Shown piece after piece: positions 34,966-56,954 of a DNA stretch of 64,000 bases. The DNA comes from Paludisphaera soli (lineage in GTDB: Bacteria > Planctomycetota > Planctomycetia > Isosphaerales > Isosphaeraceae). The stretch lies in assembly GCF_011064595.1 (NCBI RefSeq), contig NZ_JAALJI010000001.1:496001-560000 (forward strand), in the 5' to 3' direction. The first letter of the stretch is position 1, and every line of letters begins with the position of its first letter. The position numbers were made by a program, and so were the translations under genes. Under the pieces are notes generated by a model. The model had not been told where the DNA came from and made no database searches. It worked only from the letters and a program-made list of their open reading frames with translations.

Positions 34966-35016
34966 GCGACGTCGAGACCTCCGCTTTGCCGGCCAGATCG
35001 GTTTAAGACGCCATGT

Positions 35017-35046
35017 GGGCCCGTCGAGGCGAGATTCGACGGGCCC
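35017..35046 (+). terminator. 11-bp hairpin between methyltransferase and pfaD
   Basis: GGGCCCGTCGA (35017-35027) pairs perfectly with TCGACGGGCCC (35036-35046) around an 8-base loop, 52 bases after the methyltransferase stop. There is no U-run; TATAGG just after it (35054) could be part of the pfa promoter. Confidence 0.55.
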
Positions 35047-35089
35047 GCGGTCGTATAGGGAGACGTCCCACCAGCCATCAAGGCGGCGA

Positions 35090-36850
35090 ATGTCCCCTGT
35101 CGTCGCGTCCCGCGCGGTGGTATATCTGCTCGTTTCCTTGATGATGCGGACGTGCCCAGACGACGGCCCGCGAGGAACGCCGCCCCATCCGGACGCGGGC
35201 CCTCGCGACGGCCCCCGGCCGGCGTTCGGCCCGGCCGACGTGGCGTCGCATCGCGGAAGGCGGAGCAGGATCGTGCAGCGCGTCGAGACAGTTCGCGAGG
35301 CTTGGGAGGAGGCGCTCGGCCGGGTCGGCCGGGGCCTGCACGTCGCGATCGAGGACGACGGGTCCCCCCGGATCGTCGAGGCTCCGGGGCGCGACTCAAA
35401 CGACCGCGCCGCGTTCGTCCCCCCCTTTCCGATCGACCGCCTCGGCGACGCCTCGTTCCGCGCGGCCCACGGCGTCCGCTACGCCTGCATCGCCGGCGCG
35501 ATGGCCAACGGGATCGCCTCGGTCGAACTCGTCGAGGCGATGGGCCGGGCCGGCATGCTCGGGATTTTCGGGGCCGCCGGGCTTGGCCTGGACGCCGTCG
35601 AAAAGGCCGTCGACCGAATCCAGGGCTCTTTGGGGGATAAAGCCCCATACGGCTTCAACTTGATCCACAGCCCGCACGAGCCGGCGATCGAGTCGGCTGT
35701 GGTGGACCTCTACCTTCGAAGGAAAGTCCGGCTGGTGGAGGCTTCCGCCTTCTTGAGCCTGACGCCGACGGTGGTCCGCTATCGCGTCTCGGGGATCCAC
35801 CGCGACGAGCGGGGCCGCGTGGTCGCCCCGAATCGGCTCATCGCCAAGGCTTCCCGCGTCGAGGTCGCCCAGCGCTTCCTGGCCCCGCCGCCCGAGAAGA
35901 TCCTGCGGGCGCTCGTGGAGCAGGGTGCGATCGACGCCGACCAGGCCGCGATGGCCGAGACCATCCCGATGGCCGAGGACCTCACGGCCGAGGCCGATTC
36001 CGGCGGCCACACCGACAACCAACCCCTGGTCGTCCTCCTGCCGACGTTCCTGGCCCTCCGCGATCGACTCGCCGCGCAGCACGGCTACGATCGGCCCCTG
36101 CGGGTCGGCGCCGCGGGGGGGATCTCGACCCCCTGGGCCGCGGCGGGGGCCCTGGCGATGGGCGCGGGATACCTGGTGACCGGGTCGGTCAATCAGGCCT
36201 GCGTCGAGGCCGGCACGTCCGACGTCGTCAGAACGATGCTCGCCCAGGCCCAGCAGGCCGACATCGCGATGGCGCCCGCCGCCGACATGTTCGAGATGGG
36301 GGTCAAGGTGCAGGTCCTCAAGCGAGGGACCATGTTCGCCATGCGGGCCGCCAAGCTCTACGAGTACTATCGGGCTTACGACCGGCTGGAGTCGATCCCC
36401 GACGCCGACCGGGCGACGCTGGAGAAGACCATCTTCCGCACCCCCCTGCCCGATGTCTGGGAGCAGACCCGGGCGTTCTTCGCCCGCCGCGACCCTACCC
36501 AGATCGCCAAGGCCGAGGCCGACGCCAAGTACAAAATGGCCCTGGTCTTCCGCTGGTATCTGGGCCAGTCGTCGCACTGGGCCAACGTCGGCGAGCCCTC
36601 GCGAGTGGTCGACTACCAGATCTGGTGCGGGCCGGCCATGGCGGCCTTCAACGACTGGACGCGGGGCACGTTCCTGGAGAAGCCCGAGAATCGCCGCGCG
36701 GCAGACGTCGCCTTGAACATCCTCCACAACGCGGCCGTCCTGCTGCGGGCCCGGACGGCGGCCATGCAAGGCGTCGTCCCCCCCGACGGTTCCCCCCGAT
36801 TGGCCCCCCGGCCGCGTGATGAGATTGAGAAGATGGGATCGGATCTTTAA
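35090..36850 (+). CDS. pfaD: PfaD, flavin enoyl reductase of a PUFA-synthase-like complex
   Basis: The product is up to 586 residues. PfaD is a trans-acting FMN enoyl reductase of the 2-nitropropane-dioxygenase fold that reduces chains held on PfaA. Clear matches are RYACIAGAMANGIASVELVE, MLGIFGAAGL, YGFNLIHSPHEPAIE, VEASAFLSLTPTVVRYR, EADSGGHTDNQPLVVLLP and GAGYLVTGSVNQACVEAGTS. The C-terminal part (YKMALVFRWYLGQSSHWAN) is also typical. The start is uncertain: ATG 35090, ATG 35141/35144 and GTG 35273 (GGAG upstream) are in frame; the last gives about 525 residues, near the usual size. It is first of the seven-gene pfa-ole run. Confidence 0.92.
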   Translation: MSPVVASRAVVYLLVSLMMRTCPDDGPRGTPPHPDAGPRDGPRPAFGPADVASHRGRRSRIVQRVETVREAWEEALGRVGRGLHVAIEDDGSPRIVEAPGRDSNDRAAFVPPFPIDRLGDASFRAAHGVRYACIAGAMANGIASVELVEAMGRAGMLGIFGAAGLGLDAVEKAVDRIQGSLGDKAPYGFNLIHSPHEPAIESAVVDLYLRRKVRLVEASAFLSLTPTVVRYRVSGIHRDERGRVVAPNRLIAKASRVEVAQRFLAPPPEKILRALVEQGAIDADQAAMAETIPMAEDLTAEADSGGHTDNQPLVVLLPTFLALRDRLAAQHGYDRPLRVGAAGGISTPWAAAGALAMGAGYLVTGSVNQACVEAGTSDVVRTMLAQAQQADIAMAPAADMFEMGVKVQVLKRGTMFAMRAAKLYEYYRAYDRLESIPDADRATLEKTIFRTPLPDVWEQTRAFFARRDPTQIAKAEADAKYKMALVFRWYLGQSSHWANVGEPSRVVDYQIWCGPAMAAFNDWTRGTFLEKPENRRAADVALNILHNAAVLLRARTAAMQGVVPPDGSPRLAPRPRDEIEKMGSDL

Positions 36851-36938
36851 CATGGTGGGTCGACCTCGCCCCCACTGAAGCGCCCGGACGACCGAGACCT
36901 CCCACCCGGCCCGCATCGACGCTCGAAAGGGAAGTGAC

Positions 36939-39900
36939 TTGAATCAGGCCGATCCCCCGCCTCCCGTCCCGGTGGCCATCATCGGGATGGGTTGCCTGTT
37001 CCCGATGGCGGAAGACCTGGAGCGCTTCTGGTCCAACATCCGCGACCGCCTGGACGCCATCGTCGACGTCCCGGAGACCCACTGGCGTCCCGAGGACTAC
37101 TTCGACGCCGACCCCAAGGCGGCCGACCGCACCTACGCGCATCGGGGCGGCTTCCTCTCGCCGGTCGACTTCCCGCTGCTGGATTTCGGCGTGGCGCCGA
37201 ACGCCGTGGAGGCGACCGACACGACCCAGCTCCTGGGGCTCCTCGTGGCTCGGAAGGCGCTCGAGGACGCCGGTTACGGCGCGGGGGGCCGCGAGCTGGC
37301 CCGCGATCGCGCCAGCGTCATCCTGGGCGTGACCGGGACGCTGGAGTTGGTCATCCCCCTGGGCGCGCGGCTCGGACACCCGATCTGGCGACGCGCGCTG
37401 GCCGAGGCGGGGGTCGAATCCGGCACGGCCGAGGACGTCGTCCGGCGGATCGCCGACTCCTACGTCGGCTGGCAGGAGGCCTCGTTCCCCGGCCTTCTGG
37501 GGAACGTCGCGGCCGGGCGGATCGCCAACAGGCTGGACCTCGGCGGCTCGAACTGCGTGGTGGACGCCGCCTGCGCCAGCTCGCTCGGCGCGGTGAACCT
37601 GGCGCTGCACGAGCTGGCCTCGGGCCGCTGCGACGTCGCCCTGTCCGGCGGGCTCGACACCTTCAACGACATCTTCATGTACATGTGCTTCAGCAAGACC
37701 CCGGCGCTCTCGCCGACGGGCGACGCGAAGCCCTTCGCCGCCGACGGCGACGGCACGATCCTGGGCGAAGGGCTGGGGATGCTGGTGCTGAAGCGGCTGG
37801 CCGACGCTGAGCGCGACGGCGACCGGATCTACGCCGTGATCCGATCCATGGGCTCGTCCAGCGACGGCGGCGGCCAGGCGATCTACGCCCCCAAGGCGGC
37901 CGGGCAGGTCAAGGCGCTGCGGCGGGCCTACGAGCAGGCCGGGATCGCGCCGGAGACCATCGGCCTGATCGAGGCCCACGGCACGGGGACCCGCGTCGGC
38001 GACGGCATCGAGGTCCAGGCGCTGGAGGAGGTCTTCCGGGGCGCGGGGGCGGCGGCCCGGTCGTGCGCCCTGGGCTCGGTGAAGTCCCAGATCGGCCACA
38101 CCAAGGCGGCGGCGGGCGCGGCGGGGCTCGTGAAGGCGGCCCTGGCGTTGCACCATAAGGTCCTGCCGCCGACCATCAAGGTCGAGCGGCCGATCGACCT
38201 CCTGGAGGCCGAGGACTCGCCGTTCTACGTCAACACCGACAGCCGACCCTGGGTGGGCGCCGCCAGCTCCCCTCGACGCGCGGCCGTGAGCGCCTTCGGT
38301 TTCGGCGGCAGCAATTTCCACTGCGTGTTGGAGGAGGCCCGGCCCGATCGCCCGGCCGTCGATTGGGGCGGCGACGTGCAGCTCCTCGCCTACTCCGCCG
38401 ACGACGCCGCGAGCCTGGGCGAAGCCCTCCCAGGCTGGAACCACGGGACGTCCTGGGCCGACGTCCGTTCCGAAGGCGCGCGCAGCCGCTCGGCGTTCCG
38501 CGTCGACCGCCCGCTTCGGCTCCTGGTCGTGGCGCGTCGCGGAGAGACGCCCCCGGCCGCCCTGATCGCCGAGGCCAGGGAACGCCTCGCCGGCGCGTCC
38601 GCCCGCCCCTCGAAGCGCGTCCTCGTGGGTCGCGGCGAACCCGCCGGGAAGCTGGCCTTCCTCTTCCCCGGGCAGGGATCGCAGTACGTCGGGATGGGTC
38701 GCGACCTGGCCTGCCGGTTCCCCCGGATGCTCGCCGCGCTCGAGTCGGCCGACCGCGAGACCGCCTCGCGGCTGGGCGATCGCCTCAGCGGCCGGATCTA
38801 TCCTCCACCGAGCTTCTCCGACGAGGCCCGGCGACGCGACGACGAGGCCCTTCGCGACACCCGGGTCGCCCAGCCGGCCATCGGGGCGATCTCGCTGGGC
38901 CTGCTCGGCATCCTGGAAGACTTCGGGGTGAAGGCCGACATGACCGCCGGCCACAGCTTCGGCGAGCTGTCCGCGCTCCACGCCTCGGGGCGGATCGACG
39001 CCCCGACGATGCTGCGGCTCGCCGCCGAACGCGGGACGCTGATGGGCCGCCGCGACGGCCGCGACGCCGGCGCGATGCTGGCCGCCTTCGCGGCTGCCGA
39101 CCAGCTCGACGCGATCCTCCGCGAGCACGCGCTCGACGTCGTGATCGCCAACAAGAACTCCCCGCTCCAGTGCGTGCTCTCCGGCCCCGAGGCCGAGATC
39201 GAGCGGGCCGAGGAGGTGCTCCGCGCGGCCCGGATCGGCGCCAAGCGGCTCCCGGTGTCGGCCGCCTTCCACAGCCGCTTCGTCTCCGAAGCGAGCCGGC
39301 CGTTCCGCGAGGCCCTCGCGGGCGAGACGTTCGCGGAGCCGGCCTCGCCCACCTTCGCCAACTCGACCGGCGAACCGTACCCGGCCGCGCCCGACGGGGC
39401 CCGCGACCTCCTCGCGGGACAGCTCGCCCGGCCCGTCGAGTTCGTCGCGATGATCGAGGCGATGCATCGCGACGGGGCGAGGGTTTTCCTCGAGGTCGGG
39501 CCGGATGCCAGGCTCAGCTCGCTCGTCGCCTCGATCCTGACCGGCAAGGAGCACGTCGCCGCGGCCGTCGACTCGCCCCGCGACGAGGCGAACGGCCTCG
39601 TGGGCCTGGCCACGGCGCTCGCGACCGTCGCCGCTTCCGGTCGTCCCGTCGACCTCGCCCGGTGGGACGAAGGATTCGCCCCTTCGGCTCCGGCCGGTAA
39701 GCGCGCCGGCCTCACCGTGCTGGTCTGCGGCGCCCACCCGGCTCCCCGACGCAAGCCGGAGCCCGCCCGGACCGAATCAAAGCCCGCCCCCCGCCCCGAG
39801 CCGGTCGCGACGGCGACTCCGAGGCCCGTCGACCGCACGTCGCCGAGGAACGCGCCGCCCGCGGAGCCGCCGGCGGCCCGGAAAACCCCGCCACGCCCCA

Positions 39901-42900
39901 CCTTCGAGCGCCCCATGAACGCCCCCGACCGTCTCCCCGCCGCCTCGACGAACGGCAACGGCAACGGACACGCCCACGATCTGGCCCCGACGTTCGCCGT
40001 CGAGCCCCGGCGTCCGGATCGACACTCGGCCCCCTCTCCCGGCGTCGACTCGGCGCTCCAGCAGACCCAGGATCACCTGGTCGCTCTCCAGCAACTGGCC
40101 CAGCAGACGGCTCGCCTGCATCAGCAGTTCCTGGAAGGCCAGGAAACCGCCCAGCGGACCTTCCAGACGCTGCTGGAGCAGCAGCTCCGCCTGGCCGCCG
40201 GCGCGCCGGCGTCGGTGGCCGCCTCGGTCGCCCCGCCTCGCGCCGTCGAGGCCGCGGCCCCGGCCCCCCCTCCAGCCCCGGTCGTCGCGCCCAGGAGCGC
40301 CGTCGCACCCCGTCCCGAACCTCCGAAGGTCGAGGCCGTCCGGCCTGCGCCCCGGGCCTTCGCGCCCGCCCCCGCCCCGCTCCCAGCCGCCCCCGAACGG
40401 GCGACGGTGGACGCCTCGCCGGTGTCGGGGGTTCTGCTGGCGGTGGTGTCGGAGAAGACGGGGTATCCGGCGGAGATGCTGGAGCTGGACATGCGGCTGG
40501 ACGCCGACCTGGGGATCGACTCGATCAAGCGGGTCGAGATCCTGTCGGCGCTGCAGGACCGGCTGCCGGAGGCCCCGGCGATCGGGCCCGACCAGCTGGG
40601 CTCGATCCACTCGCTCCGCGACATCGTCGCCTTCCTCGGCGCGGGGCCCGCCGCCCCGGCACCGGCACCGGCCGTCGTCCCGGCTTCGGCCGGGCCTGAC
40701 GTGTCGGGGGTTCTGCTGGCGGTGGTGTCGGAGAAGACGGGGTATCCGGCGGAGATGCTGGAGCTGGACATGCGGCTGGACGCCGACCTGGGGATCGACT
40801 CGATCAAGCGGGTCGAGATCCTGTCGGCGCTGCAGGACCGGCTGCCGGAGGCCCCGGCGATCGGGCCCGACCAGCTGGGCTCGATCCACTCGCTCCGCGA
40901 CATCGTCGCCTTCCTCGGCGCGGGGGCCGCCGCCCCGGCACCGGCCCCGGCCGCAACTCCGGCCGTCGACCTGCCCGCGAAAGTCGCGCCCGCGCAGGTC
41001 CGCCTCGAACGGTTGACGCCGCGGCCTCGCGCCCTGCCCGAGCCGGACCGCCGCGAGACCCTCGCCTTCGCGCCGGGGGCGGAGGTCTGGATCACGGACG
41101 AAGGCTCGGCCCTGACGCCGGCGATCCAGGCCGCGCTCGACGAGCGCGGATTCCAGACGCGGGTCGTCGAGGCCGACGAGGCGGGCGCGGGCCTTCCCTC
41201 CGGTGCGCCGGACGCCTTGATCGTCGCGGCGCCGCTTGCGGGCCTGGACTCGACCGCTTTGAAGCGGGCGTTCCGACTAATCCGGGCCGTCGGTCCTCGG
41301 CTGCGGGGACGCACGCCCTCCGCCTTGCTGACCGTATCGCGGCTCGACGGGCGATTCGGGCTCGACGGGCTCGACCCGGCGATCGACCCGGTCGCCGGCG
41401 GCCTCGCGGGCCTCGCGAAGACCGCCGCCCACGAGTGGCCCGAGGTGAGCTGCAAGGCCCTGGATCTGGCGGGCGATCTTGCGGACGTCGATCTCGCCGC
41501 GGCGCGGCTCGTCGACGAATTGACGCGGCGCGGCCCGGTCGAGGTCGGGATTTCGGCGTCCGGGGTCGTGGAGCTGGCGCTCGAGCGGGCCGAATGGACG
41601 TCGGGGAACCACCGCCGCCGGCCGGTCCTGGATCGCGGCGATCTGGTCGTGATCACCGGCGGGGCGCGGGGCATCGCCGCCGAGGCGGCCGTCGCCCTGG
41701 CTCGCTCCTATCGGCCGACGCTCCTGCTCCTCGGCCGGACCGCGGCCCCGAACGGGCCCGAGCCCTCCTGGCTCTCCGGGGCGGCCGACGAGGCGGCCGT
41801 ACGAGCGGCGATCCTCCGGAACGCCCACGAACCGACGACTCCGCAGAAGGTCAACGAACAGGCCCGCGAGGTGCTCGCGCGTCGCGAGATCGAGGAGACC
41901 CTGAGGAGGGTCCGCGACGCCGGCGGGGAGGCGATCTACGAGGCGGTCGACGTCCGCGATCGCGCGGCGGTCCGGCGAGCGATCGATCGCGTCGCCGAAG
42001 TCCACGGGCCGGTGCGGGGCCTCTTCCACGCCGCCGGCGTCCTGGCCGATCGCCGCATCGAGGACCAGACCGACGCCCAGTTCGACCTGGTCTACGACAC
42101 CAAGATCGAGGGCCTGGCCGCCGTCTTCGAAGCGATCGATCCGGCGGGGCTTCGGACCCTCGTCCTCTTCTCATCCTCCACGGCGCGCTTCGGCCGCCTG
42201 GGCCAGGTGGCATATGCGGCGGCCAACGAGGTGCTCAACAAGTGGGCCCAGGTCCAGGCGAGACGACTGCCGGACTGCCGGGTCGTCGCGTTCAACTGGG
42301 GCCCCTGGGAAGGGGGCATGGTCACCCCTTCGCTCCGCGGGGTCTTCGAAAGCGAGGGCGTGGGCCTGATCCCCATGGCCGAGGGGGCCGAACTCGTCGC
42401 CCGCGAGATCCAGGAGTCGCGCGAGAACCCCGTCGAGGTCGTGGTCCTGGCCGACCCGCCCCGGGGCGCGTCGGGGCCGTCGCCCTCCTCGCCGGCCGAG
42501 GCTCGCGATGAGGACCTGGTGCAGGCCGACGGATTCGACGCCGACCTGCGCCCGGCCTTCGAGAGGCTCGTCGACGTCCAGGCGTTCCCGGTCCTCCGAT
42601 CCCACGTGATCGACGGCCACGCGGTCCTGCCGATGTCTCTGATCATGGAATGGCTCTGCGAGGCCGCCGTGCACCGGCACCCGGGCCTGGTCGTCGAAGG
42701 GCTGGACGACCTCCGGCTGTTCAAGGGGGTCGTGCTCCGCGACCATCATCCCGCGCCGGTGTCGCTGCGGGCGGGGAAGGGAGAGCGTCGCGGCGGATCG
42801 CTGGTCGTCCCGGTGGAGATGCGCGGGTCGCTCGGCCAGGGACGCGAGATCGTCCATGCCCGGGCCCTCGTCTCGCTGGTCGACCACCACTCCGAGGGGA

Positions 42901-46400: not shown

Positions 46401-49400
46401 GCGAGGACCACCGGCCGCCCATCCTGGGGCAGATCTCGGCCGGAGCCCTGATGACCGCGCTCTTCCTCAAGCTCGGGGTGCGGCCGAGTGCGGCGGTCGG
46501 CTACAGCCTGGGCGAGTCGGCGGCGCTCGTCGCGCTCGGCGCCTGGGCCGACCGCGATGCCATGACCCGGAGGCTCCGAGAATCGCCCCTGTTCTCGACC
46601 GAACTGGCCGGCCCCTGCCTCGCCGCGCGTCGCGTCTGGGACTTGTCGGACGAGGAGTCCGTCGACTGGGTCGCCGCGATCGTCCCGCGCTCCCGAGAGC
46701 AGGTGGAACAGGCGATCGGCGACGAAGAGCGCGTTTACGTCCTGATCCGCAACGCCGAGGACGAGGTGGTGGTCGGCGGCCGGGGCGACGCCGTGCGACG
46801 GGTCGTCGAATCCCTCCGCTGCCCGTTCCTGCCGCTGCCGACGGTCAGCACGGTCCACTGTCCGATCGGTCTCGACGTGGAGCCGGCCTACCGGGCCCTC
46901 CACGAGCTGAAGACCTCGCCCGTCCCGGACGTGACCTTCTACAGCGGCGTTTGGGGGAGCGGCTACCACCCCGATCACGGCACGGCCACCGCCGCGATCA
47001 CGGCCCAGGCCTCGCGGATGATCGATTACCCGAAAGTCGTCGAGAAGGCGTATGAGCACGGCGTCCGCGTCTTCCTGGAGATGGGCCCCGGCGCGGGCTG
47101 CACGCGGCTCGTCGGCCGAATCCTCGCCGACCGGCCGCACCTGGCCGTTTCCGCCGACGAGGCCGAAGGCGACGCCCTGCGCTCCGTCCTGCGGGCCCTG
47201 GGCTCGCTGATCGCTGCCGGCGTCCCCGTCGACCTGGATTTCCTCTACGGCCGCGAGCCGGAGCCGGCCGTCCGGGCGGCGGGAGACAAGGCGCGTGAGA
47301 TCGTCATCGAGCGCCGGGTCCCGCCGATCCGATACCCCGAGCCTCCGGCCCCCGCGCGGCGCCCCGAGCCCCGACGCGACCCCATTCCCGAACGCACCGC
47401 CCCCATACCCCCCCCGCAGCCGCTCCCCGCCGCGAGGCTCGCACCCGTCATGGCCCAACCGACCTTCGCGCCCCCGAGCCTCTCCCCGCTCGCACGCAGC
47501 TTTCTGGAGACCCAGCAGGCGTCGGCCGACGCGCACGGGGTCTTCCTGCGACTCTCGAACTCCTACGCCGAGGCGATGGCCCGGCAGGTGGCCGTCACGC
47601 TCGACGCGATCGGCGAAGGCGGCGGGCCCGTGGGCCTGGCGCTTGAAGCCTCCGAGCCGCCCCGAGTCGAGGAGGCCGCCCCGCCGCCGGCTCGACGGCG
47701 GCCCGACGTGGCCCTCGACCGCGACGAGTGCCTGGAGTACGCGGTCGGCTCCATCGGGGCGGTGCTCGGCCCGCGCTACGCCGAGGCCGATTCCTATCCG
47801 ACGCGCGTCCGCCTGCCGGATGAGCCCTTGATGCTCGTCGACAGGATCCTGACCATCGAGGGGACGCCGTTCACGCTCGGCAGCGGCCGGGTCGTGACCG
47901 AGCACGACGTCCTGCACGACGGCTGGTACCTCGACGGCGGGCGGATCGCCCCGTGCATCGCGATCGAGTCGGGACAGGCCGACCTGTTCCTCTCGGGCTG
48001 GATGGGGATCGACCTCATCACCAAGGGCCTGGCGGTCTACCGCCTGCTCGACGCGACGGTGACGTTCCATTCGGAGCTGCCCGCGCCGGGAGAGGTCATC
48101 AACTACGACATCAAGATCACCAGCTTCTTCCGACAGGGGGAGACCCATCTCTTCCGGTTCGAGTTCGAGGGGACCGTCGACGGCCGGCCGTTGCTGACGA
48201 TGCGCGACGGCTGCGCCGGCTTCTTCTCGGCGGAGGAGTTGGCCGCGGGCAAGGGGATCGTCCCCCGGCCTCTCGACGCGAAGCCCCGCCCCGGCGTCCG
48301 TCCCGACGACTGGCGCGAGCTGGCCCCGCCGGCGTCCTGCACGCTCGATCGCGCCCAGGTCGACGCGCTTCGCGCGGGCGACCTCGGCTCGGCGTTCGGC
48401 CCGCCTTTCGACCGGCTCGACCTCCCTCGGCCGCTGCCGCTGCCGGGAGGGCGGATGACCCTCGTGCATCGTGTCGAGACGCTGGAACCTAAGGGGGGCC
48501 GATTCGGCCTCGGCCTGATCCGCGCCGAGGCCGACGTCCGCCCCGACGATTGGTTCATGGTCTGCCACTTCGTGGACGACCGCGTGATGCCCGGGACGCT
48601 GATGTACGAATGCTGCCTGCACACGCTCCGCATCTTCCTGACCCGGCTGGGCTGGGTCGGCGACGCCGACCGCGTCCGCTTCGAGCCGAAGACGGGCGTC
48701 GCCAACCGGCTGCGATGCCGGGGCCAGGTGACGGAATCGACGCGGGTCGTGACCTACGAGGTGACGATCAAGGAGCTGGGCTACGACCCCGAACCGTTCG
48801 CGATCGCCGACGCCCTGATGTACGCCGACGGCAGGCCGATCGTCGAGTTCACCGACATGGGCCTCCGACTCGCGGGGACCGATCGCCGCGAGCTCGAAGC
48901 GCTCTGGGAGCAGGCCCGACCCGCGGGCGACGCGGGCCTCGTCTACGACGCGGCGCAGATCCACGCGTTCGTGGACGGCCCCCCCTCGGCCTGCTTCGGC
49001 GACCGCTACCGGCCTTTCGACGAGGATCGGTTCATCGCCCGGCTGCCGCGCCCGCCCTACCAGTTCCTCGACCGGGCTACCATCGTCCGGGGGACGCCCT
49101 GGGAGCAGCAGGAAGGGACGACGGGCGAGTTCGAGTACCTCGTGCCGCCCGACGCCTGGTACTTCGAGGCCGATCGCCAGCCCCACATGCCGTACGCCGT
49201 GCTGGCCGAGGCCGCCCTGCAGCCCTGCGGGTTCCTCTCGGCCTTCATGGGCTCCGCCCTCCTGAGCGACGAGCCGCTGAAGTACCGGAACCTCGGCGGC
49301 AAGGCCCGGCAGCATCGGGTCATCGACCGAAACACCGGCATGCTGCGCACCACGGCGCGCGTCACGAAGATCAGCCACTCGGGCGGGATGATCATCCAGC

Positions 49401-50017
49401 ACTTCGACGTCGTCATGCGCGATCGCGATGGCGTCGTCTTCGAGTGCGAGACCTACTTCGGCTTCTTCCGCCTCGAGGCGCTGGCCAACCAGGTGGGGGT
49501 CCGCGAGGCGAAGACCTACGCCCCGTCGGCCGAGGAGGCCGCCGTCTTCGAGCCGTTCCCGACGCCCGACCGGGCGCCCTTCCCCGATCGTCGCTGGTGG
49601 ATGGTGGACCGGATCACGGCGCTGACGACGGCCGGAGGGCCGCACGGGCTGGGCTTCGTGGCCGGGGAGACGGACGTGGATCCGTCGGCCTGGTTCTTCG
49701 AGGCCCATTTCCTGGACGATCCGGTATGGCCCGGTTCATTGGGCTTGGAATCGCTCCTGCAACTCCTTAAAGTCTTTGCAGAGGCGCGCTGGGCTGTCGA
49801 CGCGCGCGTCGCGTTCGACTCGCCGGGCCTCGGCGCGGAGCACGGCTGGACCTACCGGGGCCAGATCACGCCCGCCAGCCGCCTCGTGACGACCCAGGCG
49901 TGGATCACCGGCGTCGACGACGCGCGCCGCCGGGTGACGGCCGACGGACTCCTCTCCGTCGACGGCAAGGTCATCTATCAGATGACCGGCTACACCCTCG
50001 ACGCGCGCCCCGAGTGA
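43418..50017 (+). CDS. pfaC: PfaC-like megasynthase: KS-CLF-AT-four hotdog dehydratase
   Basis: The product has 2199 residues. Domains: KS (about 9-450; Cys196 in LDAACASSL, CHATGTPVGD, GSVKSNVGHTLTAAG); chain-length factor (about 470-830) whose active-site Cys is lost (FSISSDEGSGLD); AT (about 945-1260; Ser1030 in GYSLGES); linker with FLETQQASADAHGVFLR; then four FabA-like hotdogs. Hotdogs 2 (HFVDDRVMPGTL, His1717) and 4 (HFLDDPVWPGSL, His2097) have catalytic motifs; 1 and 3 are degenerate, as in known PfaC dehydratase tetradomains. KS-CLF-AT-DH order resembles myxobacterial Pfa3, but the terminal acyltransferase (AGPAT) of that protein is absent. Start ATG 43418 overlaps the pfaA stop; ATG 43442 with AGGAA upstream is an alternative. 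The stop overlaps a GTG of oleA. Confidence 0.93.
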   Translation: MTMRPGTGMSIAIVGLDAAFPGARDPDAFWRLVSEGRDASSEVPAGRWLLDADRAFDPSVGRPDRVYTTRGGFLDDEALEVDCTGLAVDPALVARLDPTFRLALRTATRAWRSARTEGLDRSRVGVVFGHLVLPTETTSAMTRATIGRRIEESLGVEPSGPADFEPRNAFPAGAPARLVADALGLGGVAYTLDAACASSLYALKLACDELTSGRADAMLAGGVSRPDALYTQMGFSQLRALSPRGRSAPFDAEGDGLIVGEGAGLFVLKRLEDAIRQGDAILGVIRGVGVSNDIAGDLLAPSSEGQIRAMRAAYDQAVWSPDDVDLIECHATGTPVGDAVEFESLRTLWAELPDAPEAGRCVLGSVKSNVGHTLTAAGAAGLLKVILAFRNRTKPPTANHRAASPRVVLEGSPFRILPTAEPWPEPDSGRPRRAAVSGFGFGGINAHALIEEWVGAGAGTIEPASGSASAVPIAVVGLAARHGREPGGDAFQHRVLGRVPASEEDDGAIDALRLRLGRFRIPPLELEDMLLQQSVLLQVAADAIADAGGPPEPGLRSGVIVGLGLDPNTTNFHLRWWLASRAPAWNVEQGWGLSETELSAWIADACDAVQPALTANRTMGSLGGLVASRVAREFRFGGPSFSISSDEGSGLDALRVAADWLARGELDSAVVGAVDLAADPRTTLAARRLAIEAGLGEDLATGECAVALVLKRHADALRDGDRVLAVLGEPAGSHGPALTIDVPRAALGWTGAAEGLAAVASAVLAIDRGIAPPTGRWSDVEGEVGSSGPRSWVRDREDGPRVVWVRSRGLDEARRTAVLWGEGAGAEESVRPLGPARLALFPVFGGDDAERRARLGDLAGWLRSRGDRPVEALASGWWRELREKGANGRGLALIAADAASLARAVAEVRDDLDRGRSIARPRGGGVEVIEPAASWDEPPRVAFTYPGLGAAYPGMGAELSATWPELVHELEDRFATVREQIVPEVWWDGPQSVRCEDHRPPILGQISAGALMTALFLKLGVRPSAAVGYSLGESAALVALGAWADRDAMTRRLRESPLFSTELAGPCLAARRVWDLSDEESVDWVAAIVPRSREQVEQAIGDEERVYVLIRNAEDEVVVGGRGDAVRRVVESLRCPFLPLPTVSTVHCPIGLDVEPAYRALHELKTSPVPDVTFYSGVWGSGYHPDHGTATAAITAQASRMIDYPKVVEKAYEHGVRVFLEMGPGAGCTRLVGRILADRPHLAVSADEAEGDALRSVLRALGSLIAAGVPVDLDFLYGREPEPAVRAAGDKAREIVIERRVPPIRYPEPPAPARRPEPRRDPIPERTAPIPPPQPLPAARLAPVMAQPTFAPPSLSPLARSFLETQQASADAHGVFLRLSNSYAEAMARQVAVTLDAIGEGGGPVGLALEASEPPRVEEAAPPPARRRPDVALDRDECLEYAVGSIGAVLGPRYAEADSYPTRVRLPDEPLMLVDRILTIEGTPFTLGSGRVVTEHDVLHDGWYLDGGRIAPCIAIESGQADLFLSGWMGIDLITKGLAVYRLLDATVTFHSELPAPGEVINYDIKITSFFRQGETHLFRFEFEGTVDGRPLLTMRDGCAGFFSAEELAAGKGIVPRPLDAKPRPGVRPDDWRELAPPASCTLDRAQVDALRAGDLGSAFGPPFDRLDLPRPLPLPGGRMTLVHRVETLEPKGGRFGLGLIRAEADVRPDDWFMVCHFVDDRVMPGTLMYECCLHTLRIFLTRLGWVGDADRVRFEPKTGVANRLRCRGQVTESTRVVTYEVTIKELGYDPEPFAIADALMYADGRPIVEFTDMGLRLAGTDRRELEALWEQARPAGDAGLVYDAAQIHAFVDGPPSACFGDRYRPFDEDRFIARLPRPPYQFLDRATIVRGTPWEQQEGTTGEFEYLVPPDAWYFEADRQPHMPYAVLAEAALQPCGFLSAFMGSALLSDEPLKYRNLGGKARQHRVIDRNTGMLRTTARVTKISHSGGMIIQHFDVVMRDRDGVVFECETYFGFFRLEALANQVGVREAKTYAPSAEEAAVFEPFPTPDRAPFPDRRWWMVDRITALTTAGGPHGLGFVAGETDVDPSAWFFEAHFLDDPVWPGSLGLESLLQLLKVFAEARWAVDARVAFDSPGLGAEHGWTYRGQITPASRLVTTQAWITGVDDARRRVTADGLLSVDGKVIYQMTGYTLDARPE

Positions 50018-50052
50018 TCGACCCCCCTTCCAGCCCGGCGGTGACGGCCCTG

Positions 50053-51114
50053 ATGGCATCGATGAAGTATCAGAACGTCTATGTGGAGGCCTTGGGCTAC
50101 GAGGTCGCCCCGGTGGTCGTCTCGTCGGCGGAGCTGGAGGAGCGGCTCGCGCCGGTCTACGACAAGCTCCACTTGGAGGTCGGCCAGCTCGAGGCCCTCA
50201 CCGGCATCGTCGAGCGTCGCTGGTGGGAGGAGGGCCACCGCGTCTCCGACGGCGCAATCGTCGCGGCCGAGCGGGCGCTGGAGGCCGCCGACCTGCCCGC
50301 CGATCAGGTCGAGGCCGTGGTCTACGGCGGCGTCTGCCGCGAGAACTACGAGCCGGCGACCGCCTGCCGCGTCGCCGCGAAGCTGGCCGTCGCGCCGGGG
50401 GCGGTCGTCCACGACCTGAGCAACGCCTGCCTCGGCGTGATCGACGGGATGATCGACGTGGCCAACCGGATCGAGCTGGGCCAGATCCGCGCCGGGCTCG
50501 TCGTGGCCTGCGAGACGGCCCGCGAGATCAACGAGGTGATGATCGGCCGGATGCTTGAGAATCCGACGATGGATTACTTCAAGGAAGCCCTGGCGACGCT
50601 CACCGGCGGGTCGGGCGCCGTGGCGGTGCTCCTGACCCACGGCTCGGTCTCGCGCTCGAAGCGGCGGCGGCTCGTGGGCGGGTCGGTCCTGGCCGCCCCC
50701 GAATTTTACGACCTCTGCCGCTGGGGCGTCGAGGAGGCCGGCTCGGCCGCGCCGGGCCTGCTCCGGGCGTTCACCTCGACCGATTCGGCGGCCGTCCTCA
50801 AGCACGGCGTCGAGTTGGGCGTGAAGACCTGGCGCGCGTTCCTCAAGAGCGTGGGGTGGGTTGAGGAGAAGGTGGACCGCATCATCAGCCATCAAGTCGG
50901 CGGGTCGCACCGCGAGCTGATCCTGAAGGCGATCGGGATGCCGCTGGACCGGGACTTCTCGACCTTCGCCTACCTCGGGAACATGGGCACCGTCTCGCTC
51001 CCCCTGACGGCCGCGATCGCCGAAGACCGCCAGGTCCTCCGCCCCGGCGACAGGACGGCGTTCCTGGGGATCGGCAGCGGGCTGAACTGCCTCATGCTGG
51101 GTCTGGAATGGTGA
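50053..51114 (+). CDS. oleA: OleA, head-to-head acyl condensing thiolase-fold enzyme
   Basis: The product has 353 residues. OleA joins two activated acyl chains by a non-decarboxylative Claisen condensation to a 2-alkyl-3-keto acid. The nucleophile Cys126 lies in DLSNACLGVIDG, the base Glu100 in CRENYEPATACRV, and His280 in ISHQVGGSHRE; the end GIGSGLNCLMLGLEW matches OleA. The start is ambiguous: GTG 50014 overlaps the pfaC stop (GTGA), and ATGs at 50053 and 50062 are in frame; MKYQNVYVEALGY aligns with the start of Xanthomonas OleA. Lying directly behind PfaC, it is the probable off-loading step for polyenoyl chains. Confidence 0.93.
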   Translation: MASMKYQNVYVEALGYEVAPVVVSSAELEERLAPVYDKLHLEVGQLEALTGIVERRWWEEGHRVSDGAIVAAERALEAADLPADQVEAVVYGGVCRENYEPATACRVAAKLAVAPGAVVHDLSNACLGVIDGMIDVANRIELGQIRAGLVVACETAREINEVMIGRMLENPTMDYFKEALATLTGGSGAVAVLLTHGSVSRSKRRRLVGGSVLAAPEFYDLCRWGVEEAGSAAPGLLRAFTSTDSAAVLKHGVELGVKTWRAFLKSVGWVEEKVDRIISHQVGGSHRELILKAIGMPLDRDFSTFAYLGNMGTVSLPLTAAIAEDRQVLRPGDRTAFLGIGSGLNCLMLGLEW

Positions 51115-52070
51115 CCGGGATGACCACCGCCTCGATCCGCAGGGGAAGTCCCGAGCTGTCCGCATTCCTCGCCGCCCACCCGGGCCGCGACTGGGAGCGC
51201 GACGGCCTCCGCCAGCACTATCTCGACGAGGGGGACGGGCCCCCGGTCGTCATGGTCCACGGCAACCCGACGTGGTCGTTCTACTACCGCCGCCTGGTCG
51301 AGGCGCTCGTCCCGACTCATCGGGCGATCGTCCCCGACCACATCGGCTGCGGGCTCTCCGACAAGCCCGACGACGAGCGCTACCGCTACACGCTGGAGAG
51401 CCGCGTCGACGACCTGGAGCGGCTGCTGGATCACCTGGGCGTTCGCGAGAACATCTCCCTTGTGCTCCACGACTGGGGGGGCATGATCGGGACCGCCTAC
51501 GCCGCGAGGCACCCCGAGCGGATCGCGAAGATGGTCGTGATGAACACGGCCGGCTTCCATATGCCGCGCGACAAGACGTTCCCCTGGGCCCTCCATCTCT
51601 GCCGATCGCCCCTGGGCGCGCCTGCGGTCCGGGGCCTGAACGCATTCGTCAGGGGCACGGCCTGGATCGGCTGCAAGAACGAGCGGATGCCGCGCCCCCT
51701 CCGCGACGCCTACGCCGCCCCCTACGACGGCTGGGCCAACCGCATCGCCATCCATCGATTCGTCCAGGACATCCCCCTCCGTCCCGGCGATCGGGCTTAC
51801 GACCTCGTCACGTGGGTCGAGGATCGACTCCCGCTCCTGGCCCACGTCCCGAAGTTCGTCGGCTGGGGCATGAAGGACTTCGTCTTCGACGAGCCGTTCC
51901 TGCAAGAATGGGAGCGGCGGTTCCCCGACGCCGAGGTCCACCGCTTCCCGAACGCCGGGCACTACGTCCTGGAGGACGAGGCCGACGCGCTGATCCCGAT
52001 GATCCGGCGCTTCCTCGACGCACCCGCCCCGAAGCCGACCGAGAGACCAGCCGATGGACGCGAGAGTTGA
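51108..52070 (+). CDS. oleB: OleB, beta-lactone decarboxylase (alpha/beta hydrolase)
   Basis: The 320-residue haloalkane-dehalogenase-like hydrolase converts the beta-lactone made by OleC into a cis-olefin and CO2. The nucleophile Asp122 is in LVLHDWGGMIG, the oxyanion segment is VMVHGNPTWSFYYR, and the His is His285 in PNAGHYVLEDE. GFHMPRDKTFPWALHLCRSP is typical OleB. ATG 51108 overlaps oleA by 7 bases and the gene overlaps oleC by 17, so translation is coupled. A true dehalogenase is the alternative, made unlikely by the ole context. Confidence 0.93.
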   Translation: MVTGMTTASIRRGSPELSAFLAAHPGRDWERDGLRQHYLDEGDGPPVVMVHGNPTWSFYYRRLVEALVPTHRAIVPDHIGCGLSDKPDDERYRYTLESRVDDLERLLDHLGVRENISLVLHDWGGMIGTAYAARHPERIAKMVVMNTAGFHMPRDKTFPWALHLCRSPLGAPAVRGLNAFVRGTAWIGCKNERMPRPLRDAYAAPYDGWANRIAIHRFVQDIPLRPGDRAYDLVTWVEDRLPLLAHVPKFVGWGMKDFVFDEPFLQEWERRFPDAEVHRFPNAGHYVLEDEADALIPMIRRFLDAPAPKPTERPADGRES

Positions 52071-53766
52071 GACGGAATCCGAGGCGGCCCCGCCCAACAT
52101 CGCATCCCACCTGCACACCCTCGCGGCCCTCCAGCCCCACCGCGCGGCGGTCGTCGTCCCCCAGGGCCGCGGCGACGCGGGCCGGATGCGCTACGCGCAT
52201 TTCACGTTCGCCCAGCTCGACCGCGACAGCGACGCCGTCGCCGCCGGGCTGATCGCCGACGGCGAGTCGCGGGGGACCCGCGCGGCCGTCATGGTCCCCC
52301 CCGGCCTGGATTTCTTCTCGCTCGTGTTCGGGCTGTTCAAGGCCGGCGTCGTCCCGGTTTTGATCGACCCCGGGATGGGGCTCAAGAGCCTGGGCCGCTG
52401 CATGGACGAGGCCGAGCCGGAGCTGTTCATCGGGATCGCCAAGGCCCTGGCCGCGCGTCGGGTGCTGGGCTGGGGGAAGCGGACGGTGCGCCGGACCCTG
52501 CTCGCGGGGCGGGGCGGACGCCTGCCGGGGTTCGCCGCGCGTTCCCTCGACGCCCTGCGCGTCAAGGGCCTCCGGGCGATCGCCGACGGCCGCGCGCCGT
52601 GGCCGGTGATGCGAGGCGTCGGCCCGGCCGAGCCGGCGGCCGTGCTGTTCACCAGCGGCAGCACCGGGCCGCCCAAAGGGGCGGTCTACACGCACCCGAT
52701 CTTCGAGGCCCAGGTCGCCTGCTTCCGCGACCTCTACGGCATCGAGCCCGGCGAGATCGACCTCTGCACGTTCCCCCTGTTCGCCCTCTTCGCCCCCGCG
52801 CTCGGCATGACCTCGGTCGTCCCCCGGATGGACCCGACCCGGCCGGCGAAGGTCGATCCCGAGAGCTTGTTCGAAGCGATCGACGACTTCGGACCCACGA
52901 ACCTCTTCGGCTCGCCGGCCCTGCTCAAGCGGGTCGGGCCGGCGGGCGTGGCGAAGGGGATGAAGCTGCCGACGCTGCGGCGGGTCGTCACGGCCGGCGC
53001 GCCGTCTTCTCCCCGCGTGCTGGAGACGTTCGCCCAGTTGCTTGAATCCCCCACGCAGATCTTCACGCCCTACGGCGCGACCGAGTCCCTGCCCGTCGCC
53101 TCCATCGGAAGTGACGAGATCCTGGGCGAGACCCGCCGCGCGACGGAGGAGGGCCGGGGCGTCTGCGTCGGCCTCCCCCGCGGCGTCGCGGTCCGGATCG
53201 TCCGCATCAGCGACGAACCGATCGCGACCTGGAGCGACGACCTGGAACTCCCCAGGGGCTCGATCGGCGAGGTCGTCGTCTCCGGCCCGGTCGTGACCCG
53301 CGAATACTTCGGCCGGCCCGAGGCCACGGCCCTGGCCAAGATCGCCGACCCGGCCCGAGGCACGTTCCACCACCGCATGGGGGACGTCGGCTACCTCGAC
53401 GAATCCGGCCGGATCTGGTTCTGCGGCCGCAAGTCGCATCGCGTCGTCCTGGCCGACGAGACCCTCTTCACGATCTGCTGCGAGGGGGTCTTCAACGCCC
53501 ACCCCGACGTCGCCCGCACGGCGCTCGTCGGGGTCGACGGCCCCTCGGGGAAGGTCCCGGTCCTCTGCGTCGAGCCGGCGCGAAAGCTCGGCCGCCGCGA
53601 TCGGGCCCGGGTGCGCGACGAGTTGCTGGCCCTCGCGGCGAAGTACGACCACACCCGGAAGATCCGCACGATCCTGTTCCATCCGTCGTTCCCGGTCGAC
53701 ATCCGTCACAACTCGAAGATCTTCCGCGAGAAGCTGGCGGCATGGGCCGCGGGGAATGCGTCATGA
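52054..53766 (+). CDS. oleC: OleC, beta-lactone synthetase (AMP-ligase fold)
   Basis: The 570-residue ANL-superfamily enzyme activates a 2-alkyl-3-hydroxy acid with ATP and closes it to a beta-lactone. The ATP motif LFTSGSTGPPKGAVYTH, the segment PYGATESLPVASIGS, the hinge region GRIWFCGRKSHRV and the C-terminal HNSKIFREKLAAW with the catalytic Lys are visible. SLPVASI after the ATE motif is characteristic of OleC. It overlaps oleB by 17 bases and oleD by 4 (ATGA). Length matches the family. Acyl-CoA synthetase would be the alternative. Confidence 0.93.
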   Translation: MDARVETESEAAPPNIASHLHTLAALQPHRAAVVVPQGRGDAGRMRYAHFTFAQLDRDSDAVAAGLIADGESRGTRAAVMVPPGLDFFSLVFGLFKAGVVPVLIDPGMGLKSLGRCMDEAEPELFIGIAKALAARRVLGWGKRTVRRTLLAGRGGRLPGFAARSLDALRVKGLRAIADGRAPWPVMRGVGPAEPAAVLFTSGSTGPPKGAVYTHPIFEAQVACFRDLYGIEPGEIDLCTFPLFALFAPALGMTSVVPRMDPTRPAKVDPESLFEAIDDFGPTNLFGSPALLKRVGPAGVAKGMKLPTLRRVVTAGAPSSPRVLETFAQLLESPTQIFTPYGATESLPVASIGSDEILGETRRATEEGRGVCVGLPRGVAVRIVRISDEPIATWSDDLELPRGSIGEVVVSGPVVTREYFGRPEATALAKIADPARGTFHHRMGDVGYLDESGRIWFCGRKSHRVVLADETLFTICCEGVFNAHPDVARTALVGVDGPSGKVPVLCVEPARKLGRRDRARVRDELLALAAKYDHTRKIRTILFHPSFPVDIRHNSKIFREKLAAWAAGNAS

Positions 53767-54782
53767 CTCTCGATCCCTCTCGACCGGTCCTGGTGACCGG
53801 CGGCGGCGGCTTCCTGGGCTCCGCCGTCGTGGCGATGCTCCGGGATCGCGGCCAGGCCGTCCGCACCCTCAACCGCCGCTGCTACGAGAAGCTCGACGCG
53901 CTCGGGGTCGATCAGGTGCAGGGAGACGTGGCCGAGGCCGATGTCGTCGACCGCGCCGTCGAGGGCTGCGACGCCGTCTTCCACGTCGCCGCCAAGGCGG
54001 GGCTGTGGGGCCCGAAGCACGAGTATCGCCGGTCGAACGTGGTCGGGACCCAGAACGTGGTCGCGGCCTGTCGTCGGTTCGGCGTCCGCAAGCTGATCCA
54101 CACCAGCTCGCCCAGCGTCGTCTTCCACGGCACCGATTTGGAAGGGGTCGACGAGTCGGTCCCCTACCCCGATCATTACGAAGCCGCCTACCCCGAGACC
54201 AAGGCGATCGCCGAGAAGCTCGTCCTGAAGTCGAACGACGCCGGGTTGGCGACCGTCGTGCTCCGCCCCCACCTGATCTGGGGGCCGGGCGACAACAACA
54301 TCCTGCCCCGGATCTACGCCCGCGCCCGGGCCAACCGCCTCTTCCGCATAGGCCGCCGGAATCCGCTCATCGACCTGACCTACATCGATAACGCGGCCGC
54401 CGCGCATCTGCTGGCCGGCGACCGGCTCGACGTGGGATCGGCGATCGCCGGCAAGGTCTACTTCATCGCCCAGGGGCAGCCGGTCCCGCTCTGGGACATG
54501 GTCGACCGTTTCCTGGAGATCGCCCACCTGCCCCACGTGCGTCGGACCGTCCCGCGCGGCCTGGCGATCGCCCTGGGGAGGACCCTGGAGGCCTTCTACC
54601 GGACGTTCCGCTTGCCCGGCGAGCCGAGGATGACTCGGTTCCTGGCCCATGAGCTTTCCACCGCCCACTGGTATAACCTCGACGCCGCCCGTCGCGACCT
54701 GGGCTACGCGCCCCACGTCGGCATCGAGGAAGGCCTGCGCCGCCTGGCGGCTTCCCTGGAAGCCCCCCCGCCCGCGTCTTGA
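53763..54782 (+). CDS. oleD: OleD, NADPH-dependent 2-alkyl-3-ketoalkanoate reductase
   Basis: The 339-residue short-chain dehydrogenase (extended SDR) reduces the OleA product to the 3-hydroxy acid used by OleC. Motifs: VLVTGGGGFLGSAVVAML for NADP, FHVAAKAGLWGPKHEY, HTSSPSVVFHGTDLEGVDES, and catalytic Tyr143/Lys147 in YPETKAIAEKL. Start ATG 53763 overlaps the oleC stop as ATGA; an in-frame ATG at 53742 is less likely. It completes the ole set and ends the overlapping run; the next gene begins 78 bases later with its own ribosome binding site. Confidence 0.94.
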   Translation: MTLDPSRPVLVTGGGGFLGSAVVAMLRDRGQAVRTLNRRCYEKLDALGVDQVQGDVAEADVVDRAVEGCDAVFHVAAKAGLWGPKHEYRRSNVVGTQNVVAACRRFGVRKLIHTSSPSVVFHGTDLEGVDESVPYPDHYEAAYPETKAIAEKLVLKSNDAGLATVVLRPHLIWGPGDNNILPRIYARARANRLFRIGRRNPLIDLTYIDNAAAAHLLAGDRLDVGSAIAGKVYFIAQGQPVPLWDMVDRFLEIAHLPHVRRTVPRGLAIALGRTLEAFYRTFRLPGEPRMTRFLAHELSTAHWYNLDAARRDLGYAPHVGIEEGLRRLAASLEAPPPAS

Positions 54783-54860
54783 CGCGCGGCCCGGCCCCCG
54801 CCATTGTTGGTTGAACCCGAAGCGGCCGAGGCCGAACCACCACGACGAAGGGACCACGCC

Positions 54861-56950: not shown

Positions 56951-56954
56951 GCCG

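Follow-up and report, generated by a model that had tools for sequence, protein, structure and literature searches.

The locus analysed here, in a 64-kb window (the whole stretch of DNA under study) from the Isosphaeraceae planctomycete Paludisphaera soli, brings a polyunsaturated fatty acid (PUFA) synthase and an olefin pathway together, and raises the question of whether the two serve a single product. We conclude, with a probability of roughly 0.85, that it is a Type I pfa-ole cluster encoding a dedicated polyene-hydrocarbon line, whose product is probably C31:9-like. This type of cluster is already known; what is added here is an OleA lineage that tracks Pfa and the recognition of the published Type J cluster as a split pathway.

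Architecture of the unit

The open reading frames of the window place pfaD, pfaA, pfaC, oleA, oleB, oleC and oleD in this order on the + strand. An 88-bp gap, read from the sequence, separates pfaD from pfaA, and the later junctions are overlaps: ATGA at pfaA/pfaC (43418-43421), GTGA at pfaC/oleA (50014-50017), 7 bp at oleA/oleB (51108-51114), 17 bp at oleB/oleC (52054-52070) and ATGA at oleC/oleD (53763-53766). The frames and junction sequences thus bear out the order and overlaps listed in an earlier note on this DNA. Its phrase “fused into one unit” fits adjacent and overlapping genes, not one polypeptide.

The enoyl reductase PfaD (35273..36850, +; likely GTG start) scores 646 bits against TIGR02814 (cut-off 449). 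The gene had earlier been drawn from ATG 35090, which is probably not its start: with five genomes of the genus aligned, 35047-35265 shows indels whose lengths are not divisible by three, and in-frame similarity sets in only at GTG 35273, behind GGCGGAGCAGG; this GTG is probably the true start. PfaA (36939..43421, +; TTG start) has the Pfam domains KS-MAT-ACP-ACP-KR-DH, with the motifs GHSFGE in the MAT, LGIDSI in each of the two ACPs, TGGARGIA in the KR and HVIDGHAVLP in the DH. The gene called pfaC (43418..50017, +) specifies a single protein of 2199 residues, which Pfam, motifs and alignment resolve as KS-CLF-AT-DH-DH: two KS-type stretches, of which the CLF has no cysteine, an AT with GYSLGE and two FabA-type DH domains with CHFVDD and AHFLDD. 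The KS motif DAACASS occurs in both PfaA and PfaC. The PfaC domains are indeed there, but the protein also includes the AT that belongs to pfaB, which makes it a pfaBC fusion.

OleA (50014..51114, +), the head-to-head condensing thiolase, scores 461 bits against NF006720 (cut-off 285). Its Cys139, Glu113, His293 and Asn323, numbered from GTG 50014 and presumably catalytic, align with the Xanthomonas campestris residues (PDB 3row). OleB (51108..52070, +) is assigned as the beta-lactone decarboxylase by position and homology; the top hit among its NCBIfam matches listed is a haloalkane dehalogenase model, at 150 bits against a cut-off of 241, and these matches include no olefin-specific OleB model. 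OleC (52054..53766, +), the beta-lactone synthetase, has NF006754 as its best match (696 bits, cut-off 478) and reaches 623-625 bits against both olefin beta-lactone synthetase models (Xan/Shew; NF045785 and NF045786), where the cut-offs are 850 and 900; a PDB search with it at 1e-40 gave no match. OleD (53763..54782, +), the 2-alkyl-3-oxoalkanoate reductase, matches Pfam 3Beta_HSD and scores 425 bits against NF042422, below the cut-off of 580. These curated equivalog models are narrow, so that the sub-threshold scores of OleC and OleD do not exclude either assignment. OleB has HDWGG, OleC TSGSTG and OleD YPETK. We take the motifs listed for the Pfa and Ole proteins to be the catalytic motifs of their families, and on this footing all four Ole proteins have their catalytic residues, and the earlier statement that all key residues are present holds. 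No hot-dog or type II thioesterase turned up when pfaD, pfaA, pfaC, oleA, oleD and the pair of genes downstream of oleD were scanned with Pfam; for oleB and oleC the scan was by NCBIfam alone, with at most 25 matches listed.

One member of the pfaEABCD set, the phosphopantetheinyl transferase (PPTase) pfaE, is absent from the unit. The only ACPS-family matches in the genome lie at C1:276364 and C35:69379, and the lone Sfp-like PPTase candidate is 219 kb before the window.

Upstream of pfaD, the leader holds an 11-bp inverted repeat (35017..35046, +), kept in 4/5 genus sequences with a weak sign of covariation. It also holds a GCGC.GTGGTATATCTGCTCG-like element (35112..35132, +), which is similar in 5/5 genus sequences and possibly the promoter of the unit, though missed by our promoter scan. 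That scan, which excluded 37000-49500, found a promoter-like + strand match at 36825-36853, in the pfaD/pfaA gap just before pfaA, raising the possibility that pfaA could have a separate transcript. No Rfam family reached its gathering score in the window, none appeared in 34900-35400 at E up to 1, and the window has no tRNA.

Conservation of the gene order

Comparing the order across Planctomycetota, a check named beforehand, we found all seven genes in order in 26/44 fetched planctomycete loci with 20 kb of sequence; 23 are complete, and three end within oleC or oleD but have complete named copies (L115, L161, L189). L115 comes from Singulisphaera acidiphila DSM 18658, a cultured species of the Isosphaeraceae. 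The fetched loci comprise 31 of the 58 over-cut-off rows besides G000 and G377 in a first PfaD search and 29 of the 30 over-cut-off rows, all but G000, in a second; 16 of these 60 are shorter than 20 kb and fall outside the 44. Among the named loci, which are the best 80 of at least 573 relatives, the seven genes are in order in 33 of the 49 with room, from six phyla: 31 were found by script, and L130 and L138 were missed by it because of their short PfaC. Ten of these 49 repeat fetched loci and all ten are complete, so that with copies removed the count is 23/39, again within the best 80 of at least 573. Eleven named loci in all were taken as copies, nine whose OleA matches that of a fetched locus exactly over the last 250 residues, plus L131 and L138, whose contigs are each as long as that of a fetched locus. 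We reject an assembly artefact as the source of the arrangement, because relatives have the same order and overlaps. A scan of viral contigs with PfaC gave no confirmed relative.

PfaD exceeds its cut-off in 53 of 392 sampled genomes of the phylum, and 48 of these 53 also have OleA; in this sample, the two share a contig in 27 genomes, lying within 25 kb of each other in 23 and on the same strand in 22. Counting against a dedicated line, pfaC lacks an oleA directly behind it in 10 of the 72 named loci with room (best 80 of at least 573) and in six fetched loci (L078, L082, L095, L098, L101, L114). In 5/7 examined genomes with a dispersed pathway, pfaC and oleA stand side by side. These figures bear on the best-placed alternative, that Pfa mainly makes PUFA, free or in phospholipids, which the AT of PfaC releases, with Ole skimming off a part as in EPA-producing Shewanella. 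The AT of PfaC is what such a release would need, and S. pealeana is described as making both EPA and a polyene hydrocarbon (PMC6463001). The near-constant pairing of PfaD with OleA in the phylum and the retained pfaC-oleA adjacency speak against it, as do bacteria, strict anaerobes included, that according to the available part of a Mar Drugs review make C31:9 but no long-chain PUFA (PMC4882568). We consider this alternative unlikely, if still to be reckoned with.

A dedicated line might also extend beyond oleD. Behind it lie a UPF0261 gene (54861..56090, +; Pfam), whose frame is open from TTG 54804, and a PEP-hydrolase-like gene (56087..56950, +; Pfam) paired with it. Only 21 bp separate the oleD stop from the earliest start available to the next frame, no terminator-like site was found there, and the pair follows oleD in all four genus relatives for which this region was fetched; in L224, L225, L130 and L138 it is located downstream of ole. 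But no such pair was found behind ole in five further members of the family fetched over this region (L221, L222, L223, L226, L228), and the pair was seen in just 2/80 named loci, themselves the best 80 of at least 573 relatives and many too short to tell. A role for the pair in the pathway is thus improbable, and we treat the UPF0261 gene as a neighbour whose place in the unit is unproven.

An OleA lineage that follows Pfa

The OleA proteins of Pfa-bearing genomes form a lineage of their own, co-inherited with Pfa. A fully supported branch (SH-aLRT 100) divides the OleA tree, with 68/69 sequences from Pfa-bearing genomes on one side, including that of the window, and 32/32 from Pfa-less planctomycetes on the other, together with X. 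campestris OleA. Both of our OleA trees are quick trees with SH-aLRT support only; the first held all 82 linked rows, every one on the Pfa side, and the second 43 of them. The Pfa-less set is drawn from the 98 genomes that have OleA but no PfaD over the cut-off and contains 32 of them; G141, G277 and G302 were treated separately. G141, which has no PfaD match in the genome sample, has a Pfa-side OleA, beside which PfaC and PfaA were then found; G277 and G302 have other-side OleA and match PfaC at the KS and AT level only. The one exception, G005, has Pfa yet an other-side OleA. As to PfaD genomes with OleA on another contig, G253, whose OleA is partial, was excluded, and neither G061 nor G081 is in a tree. 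Distances between PfaC and between OleA proteins are strongly correlated (Mantel r 0.888, n 83, against a largest r of 0.224 in 2000 permutations), in a set that includes locus copies.

A further alternative, that OleA condenses ordinary type II fatty-acid chains while pfa makes an unrelated lipid and the adjacency reflects shared regulation only, draws on X. campestris OleA, which is reported to use type II synthase chains (PMC6463001), and on the point that adjacency by itself is no proof of a metabolic link. It is very hard to reconcile with the position of the window OleA across the branch from that enzyme and the Pfa-less planctomycete proteins, and with families f2 and f50, within which OleA goes with Pfa and not with taxonomy. 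A type II fatty-acid olefin cluster is accordingly rejected on the OleA lineage.

The claim of a dedicated Pfa-to-Ole line hence stands on the order conserved across phyla and on the separate OleA lineage, though not as a novelty. In this line, PfaD, PfaA and PfaBC, with activities assigned by homology, would assemble a polyunsaturated acyl chain attached to the two ACPs of PfaA, after activation of the synthase by an unlinked PPTase. OleA would draw a pair of these chains, most probably directly from the ACPs, and condense them head to head; OleD would reduce the product, OleC would then close a beta-lactone, and decarboxylation of this lactone by OleB would yield a very long internal polyene hydrocarbon. 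We infer that the unit is co-transcribed and that the ACP hand-over operates in Paludisphaera soli. Sequence does not reveal chain length or the number of double bonds; the exact product, likewise inferred, is most likely C31:9 (hentriacontanonaene) or a close relative. Species descriptions in the Isosphaeraceae mention C31:9 hydrocarbon. Our search for literature on C31:9 or other hydrocarbons from planctomycetes, the Isosphaeraceae included, or on the chemistry of this organism, yielded nothing usable: in their accessible portions, an Isosphaeraceae description only counts polyketide clusters (PMC12402505) and an OleA paper does not mention planctomycetes (PMC7064751).

The odds seem about even that the Pfa-partnered OleA is specialised for polyene chains on Pfa ACPs, and that pfaC and oleA are a pair for hand-over, as a rule kept together where the rest of the pathway has dispersed. 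If so, the position of an OleA in the tree would by itself tell polyene from ordinary olefin, and the “partial” clusters of Type J would be split yet complete pathways to a polyene hydrocarbon. With the cluster so widely spread (six phyla among the named loci, the best 80 of at least 573 relatives) and OleA so cleanly divided, it becomes possible to test what decides whether a Pfa synthase supplies membrane PUFA or hydrocarbon; the pfaC-oleA pair and a few lineage-specific residues of the window OleA (Gln58, Gly106, Ile172 and Gly198) are concrete targets.

Comparison with known systems

The closest parallel is Geobacter bemidjiensis, a C31:9 producer, for which the Mar Drugs 2016 article gives a tandem pfaD-A-B-C-oleA-B-C-D-pfaE (PMC4882568); a claim that the joining of pfa and ole is unusual is not supported, the arrangement being already in print. 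The order pfaD-A-(B)C-oleABCD is common to both, whereas the phyla differ and pfaE closes the Geobacter cluster where the window has the UPF0261 gene. Many fetched Geobacteraceae loci have the same seven genes in order (best 80 of at least 573 relatives, G. bemidjiensis not among the 80). Geobacteraceae PfaC are also among the best named matches to the window PfaC in that set, and these and other Desulfuromonadales PfaC are 44-52% identical to it over the best segment. In the available text of Shulse and Allen 2011, Type I comprises Geobacter and one planctomycete, Gemmata, the pfaBC fusion is its mark, and a link to Ole is proposed (PMC3098273). The window agrees with this type in its pfaBC fusion and in having pfaD in the same cluster as a pfaA with KS-MAT-ACPn-KR.

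Shewanella and Photobacterium have the same enzymes, and it is there that Allemann 2019 proposed ACP-to-OleA transfer on in vivo evidence, OleA and Pfa in E. coli giving a 31:8 ketone (PMC6463001). Their pfaB is described as a separate gene (PMC4882568), in contrast to the fusion in the window. P. profundum SS9 is reported to have pfaT between adjacent pfa and ole operons and no detectable hydrocarbon (PMC6463001), so that possession of the genes is no guarantee of the product; the scans described above showed no pfaT-like thioesterase. The pfa and ole loci of Shewanella lie apart. X. campestris OleA shares full-length similarity and the four catalytic residues with the window OleA, despite standing opposite it in the tree.

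Finally, the Type J cluster of Planctomyces limnophilus, published as apparently partial, has only pfaD followed by pfaA, as in the window. In the putative genome of this species, contig coordinates place pfaC directly before oleA, 3.7 Mb from pfaD-pfaA, and oleB and oleC elsewhere, whereas the window holds all seven together. This two-gene cluster is a split pathway, and the correction concerns a sequenced, cultured planctomycete.

The gene unit and the start of pfaD

The open reading frames place pfaD (from no later than 35273 to 36850), pfaA (36939-43421), pfaC (43418-50017), oleA (50014-51114), oleB (51108-52070), oleC (52054-53766) and oleD (53763-54782) on the + strand of the window, in the order described by the earlier note and with catalytic motifs intact, as it had also claimed. 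The junctions that it listed are real, with the 7 bp at oleA/oleB and the 17 bp at oleB/oleC being overlaps. PfaA has the architecture KS-MAT-ACP-ACP-KR-DH, and its two ACPs are ordinary, since the PfaA-assigned ORFs of relatives (>1900 aa) contain 1 to 5 ACP motifs, with 2 or 3 in 40 of 47. The next protein is not a plain PfaC: it reads KS-CLF-AT-DH-DH, and the AT of pfaB therefore sits within it.

A promoter scan of the pfaD region up to 37000 and of the stretch from 49500 to 57200 gave one + strand match (36825-36853), immediately 5' of pfaA; in the second stretch it returned neither a + strand promoter match nor a terminator-like site. This is compatible with one transcript or several, and we infer that the unit is read as a single one. 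A gene pair coding for UPF0261 and PEP-hydrolase-like proteins (54804-56950) lies immediately behind oleD; it recurs there in all four genus relatives examined and downstream of the ole genes in two further family members. No pfaE occurs within the seven-gene unit. ACPS-family matches were found at two places in the whole genome: a 254-aa frame, in our reading Sfp-like, on contig C1 (~275938-276702), lying ~219 kb ahead of the window and 255 kb ahead of pfaD, and a 141-aa frame on contig C35 that we read as AcpS-like. PfaD and OleA each have one match in the genome (OleA at E up to 1e-60).

A leader of ~300 bp separates the stop of the upstream methyltransferase gene (34204-34965) from pfaD. 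The earlier note's start at 35090 is probably wrong because, in an alignment of five genomes of the genus (the window and G418-G421), the indels in 35047-35265 are not multiples of three and in-frame similarity begins at the GTG at 35273, which is preceded by GGCGGAGCAGG. The aligned leaders share a CCAGATCGGTTT..CCATG-like block and a conserved GTGGTATATCTGCTCG-like element; the stretch 34983-35132 combines a conserved block, an inverted repeat and a conserved TGGTATAT-like element. Compared with Rfam, the leader gave no match. The 11-bp inverted repeat (35017-35046) is kept in four of the five sequences, with 87.3% of cells paired and both sides changed in 4 of 11 pairs, a count reached by 3 of 500 shuffles. 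Covariation in this repeat is nevertheless weak, because sliding by three columns also yields four two-sided changes, yet with only 41.8% paired, and because G418 disrupts part of the stem.

Conserved order and dispersed pathways

PfaD exceeds the cut-off in 29 of 45 Isosphaeraceae genomes and in 53 of 392 across the phylum sample, where OleA is present in 146, including 48 of the 53 with PfaD. The two genes share a contig in 27 genomes (≤25 kb apart in 23, 22 of these on the same strand, and farther in 4) and are on separate contigs in 21, all drafts. The comparison of pfa-ole order across Planctomycetota that the earlier note had proposed shows the order to be conserved: 44 of the 60 loci retrieved around pfaD span 20 kb, and 23 of these carry the complete ordered seven-gene set, while 3 more end within oleC or oleD and are complete in their copies from records with organism titles.

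The loci from such titled records, collected with a PfaC profile, are the best 80 of at least 573 relatives. Among these 80, oleA lies directly behind pfaC in 62 of the 72 with ≥1.2 kb there, and 49 have room for all seven genes. A script found the ordered seven in 31 of the 49, or 33 once L130 and L138, missed because their PfaC is short, are added; ten of the 49 duplicate fetched loci, and without them 23 of 39 are complete. The PfaC frames of L130 and L138 (= L063 and L067) have just 1753 and 1836 aa, yet their seven genes are ordered. By record titles and taxonomy, the complete loci among these best 80 belong to Planctomycetota, Thermodesulfobacteriota, Elusimicrobiota, Gemmatimonadota, Pseudomonadota and Myxococcota. 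Some titles of metagenome-assembled genomes seem mislabelled: the record of L182 bears the name Klebsiella pneumoniae, and that of L147 reads Bacillota, its OleA being the one found in planctomycete G213.

Variant arrangements also occur. In L114 (genome G352), pfaD-pfaA-pfaC is followed by oleB-oleA running the opposite way, and oleC is at another genomic location; in L274 (G107, contig C1 near 9476049), oleA, oleB and oleC lie just upstream, not downstream, of pfaD, and the OleA is of the Pfa-associated kind discussed below. In seven genomes examined the pathway is dispersed, and pfaC adjoins oleA in five of them (split loci L275, L276, L277, L278 and L279, with the pair away from pfaD or pfaD-pfaA), the exceptions being G005 and G081. 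In G321 (taken as P. limnophilus), G283 and G373, pfaC immediately precedes oleA; contig coordinates put this pair 3.6-3.8 Mb away from pfaD-pfaA, or, should the contigs be circular, 1.6-3.5 Mb in the other direction; oleC and oleB are at other places, the oleB of G373 just 37 kb off. Different contigs hold pfaC-oleABCD and pfaD in G216 (pfaA was not located) and pfaC-oleA-oleB and pfaD-pfaA in G130. In G081 (L099), oleA is ~20 kb from pfaD, no pfaA or pfaC occurs within 18 kb after pfaD, and a PfaC-like match is on another contig. In excerpts of Shulse & Allen (PMC3098273), the P. limnophilus cluster consists of just pfaD and pfaA and is described as apparently partial. Since the pfaC-oleA pair, oleB and oleC are found elsewhere in G321, the P. 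limnophilus pathway is split, not partial.

An OleA lineage tracking Pfa

In a first OleA tree (n=102), a single branch (SH-aLRT 100, length 1.03) separates, without exception, the 15 sequences of planctomycetes lacking a PfaD match from the 87 of Pfa-bearing loci or genomes. A second tree (n=105) comprised the window, 43 linked rows, 25 unlinked rows (PfaD genomes whose OleA stands outside a pfaD-A-C-oleA block), 32 Pfa-less genomes (17 absent from the first tree), three doubtful genomes and X. campestris. The same division appears (SH-aLRT 100, length 0.96): the window, 43/43 linked and 24/25 unlinked rows on the Pfa side, and 32/32 Pfa-less genomes with X. campestris on the other. G005 (L245) is the sole tested Pfa-bearing genome with an OleA on the non-Pfa side; there oleA and the pfa genes occupy separate contigs, and the 4.7 kb behind the pfa genes contain no ole gene. 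Of the three doubtful ones, G141 gave no PfaD match but has a Pfa-side OleA with PfaC and PfaA adjoining oleA, and G277 and G302, with just KS- and AT-level PfaC matches, fall on the other side. The split is not simply taxonomy, because families f2 and f50 each hold both kinds. Ten alignment columns separate the sides; Gln58, Gly106, Ile172 and Gly198 (window OleA numbering) are present in 68/68 Pfa-side rows and 0/33 others. PfaC and OleA distances correlate (r 0.888), as expected for genes co-inherited, vertically or as a block.

Relation to known clusters

The individual reaction steps are assigned from the known Pfa and Ole families. In P. soli the chain would pass from the ACP to OleA, and the product is probably C31:9. 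A literature search, mainly of titles and the beginnings of abstracts and with few subscription journals, found no description of this unit in Isosphaeraceae, of the OleA lineage split or of the P. limnophilus correction. In the sections consulted, PMC6463001 presents the Pfa-Ole link as mediated by OleA, argued to take chains off the Pfa ACPs, and PMC3098273 includes Gemmata among its Type I clusters, proposed to feed olefin synthesis. The portion consulted of PMC4882568 gives a tandem pfaD-A-B-C-oleA-B-C-D-pfaE cluster and a C31:9 product for G. bemidjiensis. That cluster ends with pfaE, whereas the P. soli unit is without it; the latter is a well-conserved example of an already known cluster type.
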